Assembly (NCBI GenBank): GCA_019313915.1
Contig: JAFDAJ010000032.1
Location: 1-53,649 of the forward strand
Origin: Deltaproteobacteria bacterium
GTDB taxonomy: Bacteria; Myxococcota_A; Polyangia; Polyangiales; Houyiibacteriaceae
Reading direction: 5' to 3'
Length of the DNA: 53,649 bases
Part shown: one piece after another, positions 6,949 through 11,601 of the stretch
Layout: every line of letters starts with the position of its first letter
Numbering within the stretch: the first letter of the stretch is position 1
The notes under the pieces: model-generated
The model's database searches: none
What the model saw: only the letters and a program-made list of their open reading frames with translations
What the model was told of the DNA's origin: nothing
Made by a program: the position numbers and the translations under genes

Positions 6949-7809
6949 TCAGATTCTGTCGAGCAGCGTTCGTTCGCCGAGCTCTTCGCACAACGCTTCA
7001 AGTGCGGGACGATCCGGGCCCGTCCACCGAAGGTCTTGCAGCGACTCGCTGATCGGCACATCGGTTCGCAACGTCGCAAGTGTTCGATACAGCATCGCAT
7101 CAGCGCGATGCTCGCTGAGGTTGTGTGCGAGCGTCGCGCCGCCGCGCACCTTCACTCCCCACTCTTCGTAATCGTCCGAAATGTTTTCGATGTGCGTTAG
7201 CTTCGCGAGCACGAGCGACGCGCTCTTGGCTCCCCAACGCTCGATGCCAGGAATCCCATCGGCCGCATCTCCAACGAGCGCCAAATAGTCAGGAATCGAT
7301 TCCGGCGACACTCCGAACTTGTCGCGCACGCCCGCCTCGTCGAGAACGATGTCTCTGCGTCGATCGAGCGTCACGACTTCCTTGCCGCGAACGCACTGGC
7401 ACAGGTCTTTGTCCGGCGAGCAAATCACGACCTGCTCCACGCCCGGTGCGTCGCGAAACTTTGCGGCGGCGACGGCAAGCGCATCGTCGGCCTCGAACTC
7501 GAGCATGGGCCAGGTGACGAGTCCCAGCGCTCTGCTCGCACGCTCGACCCACGGAAACTGGTCGAAGAGCTCGGGGTCCAAACCCTCGCCGGTCTTGTAG
7601 CCTTCGAAGAGGTCGTTGCGGAACGACTCGACCGTGTGGTCGAACGCGCACCCCACGTGGGTCACCTCAGCGTCCCGAAGCATCGCCGCCATCGATCGCA
7701 AGAAGCCGCGCGTGGCACCGACTTCCTGCCCGGTTGGTGACATCGACTCCGGCGCACCGAACCAAGATCGGAACAGCTCGTAGGTTCCGTCGACCAGGTG
7801 CACCTTCAT
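6949..7809 (-). CDS. 5'-3' exonuclease / flap endonuclease-like protein (PolA N-terminal homologue)
   Basis: 286 residues, free-standing, with no polymerase domain. It begins with MKVHLVDGTYELFRSWF, the metal-binding Asp strand of the FEN/PolA 5' nuclease family. Further acidic motifs are FEADDALAVAA and ICSPDKDLCQC, then the helix-hairpin-helix region with LVGDAADGIPGIERWGAKSA. These residues bind two divalent metals and the DNA backbone. Such proteins remove flaps or RNA primers during repair and replication. The start is ATG at 7809. No partner gene is coupled to it. Confidence 0.92.
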   Translation of the reverse strand: MKVHLVDGTYELFRSWFGAPESMSPTGQEVGATRGFLRSMAAMLRDAEVTHVGCAFDHTVESFRNDLFEGYKTGEGLDPELFDQFPWVERASRALGLVTWPMLEFEADDALAVAAAKFRDAPGVEQVVICSPDKDLCQCVRGKEVVTLDRRRDIVLDEAGVRDKFGVSPESIPDYLALVGDAADGIPGIERWGAKSASLVLAKLTHIENISDDYEEWGVKVRGGATLAHNLSEHRADAMLYRTLATLRTDVPISESLQDLRWTGPDRPALEALCEELGERTLLDRI

Positions 7810-8356
7810 GGCGAGGTCTTATTCGCAGTTCGTCCCGCCGGCACGGTGCAGCCGGGAGAAGGACTCGTATTACGCGGACTTGTGGAGCGATCTTGCAGGC
7901 GTCACGGAGGGAAAGAGGCGCGGATCGCCAGGTAGCATGATGTCTGTCCTTGTCGGGTAGCTACGCACATGGCACGCTAAGTATTGCGTGTTTCTTGGGT
8001 GCGCACCCCAACATCTAGTACCATAGCCACTATGGCCATGCATGAGGTGTCATGTGGTGTGGTTTAAGGGGAATGCGTCTATGACGCAGTGCGAAATGAC
8101 AGAAAATGCCCCCGCAAGCGCCTTTCAACTGCTCGGAATCGCAGGTGAAAGAAAGAAAGCAATTTGGGCCGATCGTTTCTGCTTGACTGGCCTGGCTTCG
8201 CGGAGCTACTTCGCAGGTCCGCCCCCAAGCGGTTGTGGTGGTAATGAGGCTACCAGCGCAATCCCTTGTGGGACGAATGTGGAAAGTGGGTGGTCTACCT
8301 GGGGATGGATGGTGGACTTACCTGGATGGTGAGTTGCGTCTGGTTGGAGGTACGTT
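7810..8356. other. 547-bp gap: divergent promoter region and long nrdJ leader
   Basis: No convincing gene is present. The region separates the minus-strand exonuclease from nrdJ. It has several compact inverted repeats: GGGTGCGCACCC (7997-8008), CCATAG-CCA-CTATGG (8021-8035) and TGCGTC-TAT-GACGCA (8074-8088). The last 150 bp are GGT/ACC-rich and contain two similar ~22-bp blocks (8290-8335) with ACCTGG and GGATGG elements. I do not see a canonical cobalamin-riboswitch B12 box or a clear NrdR box. A strong ribosome site, GGAGG at 8345-8349, precedes the GTG at 8357. Confidence 0.6.
7997..8035. promoter_or_regulatory. paired palindromes upstream of nrdJ, possible operators
   Basis: A perfect 12-bp palindrome GGGTGCGCACCC (7997-8008) and a 6-3-6 inverted repeat CCATAGCCACTATGG (8021-8035) lie 24 bp apart centre to centre. 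They sit in the shared upstream region of nrdJ and the exonuclease gene. Neither matches the NrdR consensus that I know, so the binding protein is unknown. Confidence 0.4.

Positions 8357-11601
<3,245 letters not shown>

Follow-up and report, generated by a model that had tools for sequence, protein, structure and literature searches.

A site for the repressor NrdR consists of two tandem boxes lying ~31-32 bp apart (PMC2892513), and pairs with spacers of 14-17 bp were bound by all four NrdRs tested in another study (PMC12051234). The pairs known from S. coelicolor nrdRJ, E. coli nrdHIEF, nrdDG and nrdAB, and P. aeruginosa nrdJ are built of 16-bp palindromes about three turns apart, with conserved C4/G13 and A6/T11, and these operators comprise one pair. 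At Listeria monocytogenes nrdAB, a distal and a proximal pair with spacers of 15 and 16 both bind NrdR, and its authors describe what the distal pair does as unclear (PMC12051234).

The same palindrome length, distance and conserved positions were found upstream of nrdJ in the DNA analysed here (the window, a stretch of 53,649 bp), and the genome likewise encodes an NrdR in which the DNA-contact residues are conserved. The locus differs from the S. coelicolor, E. coli and P. aeruginosa systems in having two pairs instead of one, in the GC-rich centres of the downstream boxes, in the position of that pair downstream of a predicted promoter start, and in that nrdJ is the only ribonucleotide reductase (RNR) gene detected. 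It shares with Listeria nrdAB the arrangement of four NrdR boxes in two pairs before one RNR operon. Since two pairs are already known there, the double operator is regarded as a variant of a known system. Whereas the Listeria operator belongs to a class I system and is described from one species, the present one precedes a class II gene with putative separate promoters, and its inter-pair distance is nearly fixed in at least four families. A literature search, which covered few subscription papers, found no report of a two-pair NrdR arrangement at nrdJ or in Myxococcota, nor of a conserved distance between NrdR pairs.

Two box pairs upstream of nrdJ

The window comes from a 4.4-Mb genome; among named organisms, uncultured Myxococcota such as 'Myxococcales bacterium SG8_38' are closest to it. 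The class II (adenosylcobalamin) RNR gene nrdJ (8357-11527, + strand, GTG start) was identified by PF02867, PF08471 and PF12637 and by TIGR02504 over its cut-off, and its Shine-Dalgarno sequence GGAGGT (8346-8351, + strand) is invariant in the genus alignment. A gene of the 5'-3' exonuclease family (6949-7809, - strand) borders the gap on the other side, and the 547-bp length of the gap (7810-8356) and the GGT/ACC-rich, partly repeated 3' part of the leader were both as the initial annotation had described them. On the exonuclease side, a block like GCATTACGCGGACTTGTGGAACGATCTTG at 7870-7897 was seen again in several genus genomes and is probably the control region of the divergent gene. A phage origin was rejected, as a phage collection gave zero matches.

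The leader very probably forms a double operator for NrdR, composed of two predicted box pairs, U and D. The upstream pair comprises U1 (ACGCTAAGTATTGCGT, 7974-7989) and U2 (CCCCAACATCTAGTAC, 8006-8021), and the downstream pair comprises D1 (CCCCAAGCGGTTGTGG, 8223-8238) and D2 (GCGCAATCCCTTGTGG, 8256-8271). All four boxes are 16-bp palindromes that fit NNNC-WA-NNNN-TW-GNNN, and the spacers of 16 bp in U and 17 bp in D fall inside the 14-17 range bound in PMC12051234, the functional range being taken as these lengths or a turn longer.

These pairs were the two best non-overlapping NrdR-type pairs across the 53.6-kb window under either of two scoring schemes. With a 12-position consensus of the NrdR box, D ranked first (21 of 24) and U second (19 of 24) in the 53,649 bp, and the next pair scored 17; a score of 19 was reached in 4 of 2000 simulated 547-nt leaders and a score of 21 in none. 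The scan was repeated with a matrix of bound E. coli boxes, built from six boxes taken off the binding oligonucleotides in PMC12176259. Among 268,010 pair positions, this matrix of six boxes placed U at rank 1 and D at rank 6, ranks 2-5 reusing U2. The coding control, 2 kb from each of 27 nrdJ loci, gave a best pair of at most 17 (matrix 5.9), to be compared with 21 (matrix 7.8) for D and 19 (matrix 21.7) for U. The centres of D1 and D2 (GCGG and TCCC), unlike those of most E. coli boxes, are GC-rich, and the matrix scored these boxes just 4.2 and 3.6. A strict D pattern, TTGTGGN{17,21}CAANNNNTTGTGG, matched exactly once in each of 18 of the 33 family genomes, always before nrdJ, whereas the reversed-pattern control matched 5 times in the 33 genomes. 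No box pair above background was found at the promoter of nrdR itself (best score 15).

Transcription-factor operators had been proposed for this leader in the initial annotation, and the four NrdR-type boxes in two pairs strongly support that proposal; the sites are, however, palindromes other than the three it had listed. Those three, at 7997 (GGGTGCGCACCC), 8021 (CCATAGCCACTATGG) and 8074 (TGCGTCTATGACGCA), are exact, and so many short inverted repeats exceed chance: leaders simulated with this composition had 0.45 on average, and three or more occurred in 0.4% of 500. Each of them keeps at least 5 of its 6 pairs in just one of the 18 genus genomes, namely that of the window itself; they are not retained by the 17 others and are not the functional core.

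Two promoters are predicted around the pairs. P1 was picked by eye from the alignments (TTGGGT 7995-8000, 18 bp, TACCAT 8019-8024, + strand); it would lie across the U pair, with U2 overlapping its -10. P2 (TTGACT 8183-8188, 18 bp, TACTTC 8207-8212, + strand) rests on a conserved CTTGAC (8182-8187) that stands at the same place in 18/18 genus genomes and precedes most D pairs elsewhere, the pairwise identity over 8182-8188 being 0.954 in the genus. The end of CTTGAC and D1 are separated by 35 bases, and D1 would lie just past the P2 start. As a consensus promoter scan of the leader reported neither P1 nor P2, both starts remain predictions. The predicted mode of action and the predicted membership in the NrdR systems agree on the features tested, promoter overlap excepted.

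Conservation and spacing of the pairs

By DNA search, the leader was detected in 18 of the 19 genomes of the genus, that of the window counted, and in none of the 14 other family genomes; the sole genus genome without it is also without a detectable nrdJ. The box cores C4/A6/T11/G13 were intact in all four boxes in all 18. Conservation in the genus alignment is arranged in islands, and the boxes change at a much lower rate than synonymous nrdJ sites. Mean pairwise identity was 0.804 for U1, 0.865 for U2, 0.949 for D1 and 0.877 for D2 (0.80-0.95 overall) against 0.525 at 346 four-fold synonymous sites, a comparison made on 16 of the 18 genomes with a leader, two with fragmentary nrdJ being left out. 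The intervening segments 7990-8005, 8022-8034, 8058-8080 and 8097-8145 showed identities of 0.47-0.59.

Some stretches outside the boxes (8146-8181, 8203-8222, 8239-8255 and 8272-8345) are conserved in the genus beyond what NrdR would account for. The A/G-rich block 8146-8181, directly upstream of the predicted P2 -35 (identity 0.762 vs 0.525 at four-fold sites), is perhaps an activator or UP-element site. A motif like TGACCATACATG lies at 8035-8057, ~13 bp past U2 (genus identity 0.757), and recurs in several families, e.g. at loci L039, L040 and L047; it is perhaps a third operator or an element of the P1 start. The stretch TGACGCAGTGCGAAA (8082-8096) is largely kept in most genus genomes, with the exception of L015-L017 (identity 0.693 over 8081-8096).

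In a survey of 75 representatives of the order, the region before nrdJ contained a box pair with a score of 19 or more in 51, and the other 24 fell below 19. Pairs were assigned to types by a loose rule (U-type, T-rich spacer; D-type, TTGAC-linked) under which one pair was double-counted in two f10 genomes. By this rule, both types were present in families f1 (25 of 28 rows), f2 (1/1), f9 (1/1) and f12 (6 of 9), f10 mostly had the U-type alone, and f5-f8 the D-type alone. The same-family genomes G006, G009 and G010 carry a D pair without U.

The distance from U2 to D1 was 216-218 in the 18 genus genomes. Elsewhere it was 218 in G002, G007, G011 and G032, 217 in G003, 215 in G012, 219 in G062 and G177, and 221 in G178 and G179; values of 207-209 were found in G033, L084, G173, G180 and G181, and that of G001 was ambiguous (226-229). 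Two length classes, ~218 and ~208 bp, thus lie approximately one helical turn apart. After the D pair of G003 and before its nrdJ match there is a CATGACCATGGTTCC repeat array (L038 ~1363-1483). Across the genomes with U-D distances, D1 lies ~135-440 from the start of the nrdJ match. At least four families keep both pairs with a U-D distance that is nearly constant or shifted by roughly one helical turn, whereas the distance to nrdJ is free to vary. The Rayleigh R was 0.70 for the U-D distance and 0.19 for the D1-start distance over 15 values, a statistic that ignores kinship. For this set, equal sister genomes were entered once and G001 was entered as 226, and genomes with a D pair but no convincing U were omitted (G006, G009, G010, G182, the D-only families f3 and f5-f8, and three f10 rows). 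Independent length changes number two or three only. The chance that all three large changes keep phase was put at 0.05, and that for two at 0.13, and the phasing is therefore suggestive only. Within the genus few indels occur in any case, so it is the constancy between families that carries weight.

Other readings of the leader

The cobalamin riboswitch (RF00174) would be the expected RNA sensor for a B12 enzyme or for its substitutes, and an adenosylcobalamin enzyme had been put forward in the initial annotation as a natural target for ligand-sensing RNA. In 7810-8356 no Rfam family reached its gathering threshold, in 7780-8500 nothing relevant turned up with E allowed to rise to 10, and the nrdJ leaders of 20 relatives were likewise free of matches, which agrees with the annotated lack of a standard cobalamin-riboswitch box. 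Two cobalamin riboswitches are present in the genome of the window, on contig C371 in both cases; neither lies at nrdJ. Class I nrdB exceeded its cut-off in two family genomes (G011 and G032), and in both a cobalamin riboswitch precedes nrdAB; the premise of the annotation thus seems to be reversed. At these loci (G011:C406 and G032:C1; L218, L224 and L225), an NrdR-type pair adjoins the riboswitch (matrix 23.9 and 12.8), and nrdAB there may be a backup enzyme under dual B12 and dATP control. A group II intron domain match (RF00029, 48.8 bits) was also seen in G032 beyond the nrdJ match, at L042 4862-4937 (- strand).

A structured, riboswitch-like RNA running from P2 to the nrdJ start and controlling translation was considered unlikely. 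Such an RNA would use hairpins at ~8231-8264 and 8292-8318 to hide the ribosome site or the GTG, possibly sensing adenosylcobalamin or nucleotides. It would fit the conservation of 8203-8345 above synonymous sites in the genus, and RNAalifold pairs GCUAC at 8205-8209 with GUGGC at the start codon, although these pairs hardly vary. The search for covarying stems in aligned leaders, which had been suggested as a check, yielded one genus-level hairpin of eight pairs (8292-8299 with 8311-8318, + strand). Of the 59,079 stems of eight pairs examined in the genus alignment, it covaried the most; 91.6% of its cells were paired (35-52% in slid versions), and it showed 8 double changes, a number reached in 0 of 500 shuffles (mean 2.5). 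The hairpin has 36 G-U cells vs 2 A-C cells, an excess that may partly reflect G/T-rich composition. As it covaries in the genus, a modest RNA element with a small role in the 5' UTR is possible; no other RNA feature of the leader has support. In the D1-D2 spacer, the stem was not above shuffles in 25 representatives across genera (p 0.25). The large RNAalifold consensus is centred on a stem in which the right half of D1 pairs with the left half of D2, and such pairing is forced by tandem palindromes. Complementarity between the D1 and D2 box centres was above that of permuted partners (p 0.004, in a statistic that ignores kinship); it is not claimed as a finding because relatedness was uncontrolled and the spacer stem did not exceed shuffles. 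The empty Rfam search, a weak whole-leader fold z of -1.6 and the variable leader length (D1 to start ~100-440) also speak against a structured RNA. A covariance model of 8203-8368 (R1) matched all 18 genus leaders but was weak outside the genus, with 3 of 14 other family genomes. Outside the genus, no features were found in common among the leaders except the boxes and some promoter-like pieces, TTGAC or T-rich. With Rfam empty and the main stem following automatically from the tandem boxes, the proposed ligand-sensing RNA finds no support.

It was also considered, and judged clearly improbable, that the D repeats (TTGTGG, TGTGGAW) are DnaA boxes linking nrdJ to the replication cycle. TGTGGAA or TGTGGAT, which resembles a DnaA box, occurs ~80 bp before the start in 14/18 genus genomes. 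DnaA boxes are 9-mers that are not known to have the geometry of a repeated 16-bp palindrome, whereas the conserved unit here is exactly such a palindrome, repeated at 31-33 bp as in NrdR sites. Binding of DnaA at the E. coli nrdAB promoter is known from PMC12176259 and speaks for the DnaA reading. A possible extra half-site, ATGTGG (8277-8282, + strand), lies 11 bp (one turn) past the D2 half-site; it reads TTGTGG in most relatives and is also DnaA-box-like (TGTGGAA), so that it could possibly be a site of that kind. A coding function of the conserved block is highly improbable. The open frame 8042-8332 would encode a small protein or leader peptide of 96 aa, and parts of it are conserved in some relatives, but one base is missing from the C-run at ~8221-8226 in 6 of the 18 genus genomes, which puts them out of frame, L015-L017 no longer have the start region, and an NCBIfam search gave no match; the ORF was rejected on account of the frame-shifting gaps.

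NrdR and a putative double switch on nrdJ

Of the 33 family genomes, 30 encode an NrdR that exceeds the TIGR00244 cut-off. The genome of the window carries a single copy (G000:C42:4648-5088) with a Zn-ribbon and an ATP-cone. All the tested DNA-contacting residues named in PMC9110341 (R12, D15, R17, R26-29 and R37) are present in this protein, which also keeps C3, C6, C31 and C34. Neither nrdB nor the class III NRDD family was found in the 19 genus genomes (0/19 each), and PF02867 matches in the window's genome are confined to nrdJ, which by these sequence searches is the only RNR gene detected there. An ATP-cone search of NrdJ (P0001, window 8357-11527) gave zero matches at E 0.001. The feedback of dATP on overall activity may therefore rest mainly on NrdR.

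Based on the double NrdR operator, it was hypothesised that nrdJ is regulated as described below. When dATP rises, ATP/dATP-loaded NrdR tetramers would occupy both the U and the D pair. NrdR on U would cover the upstream promoter P1; NrdR on D would cover the start of P2 and could, in addition, halt transcripts that come in from P1. With both pairs occupied, the only detected RNR gene would be shut down. A weaker inference from the almost constant distance between U and D (~218 or 208 bp) is that the NrdR complexes on them would have to be oriented in a defined way relative to each other. It is tentatively suggested, though we think it more doubtful than probable, that U and D form one device in which NrdR tetramers at a fixed, helically phased distance bend or loop the 250-bp segment that separates the two promoters, so that both go silent together on a rise in dATP.

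If this is true, NrdR would act on a class II RNR gene as a double switch that is cooperative and depends on phase, and a mechanism would be at hand for the second NrdR pair, so far unexplained. The natural experiment present in at least four families makes cooperation or looping by NrdR directly testable. A bacterial group in which class II is the only RNR gene detected, and in which NrdJ shows no ATP-cone, may rely on NrdR for dATP feedback.
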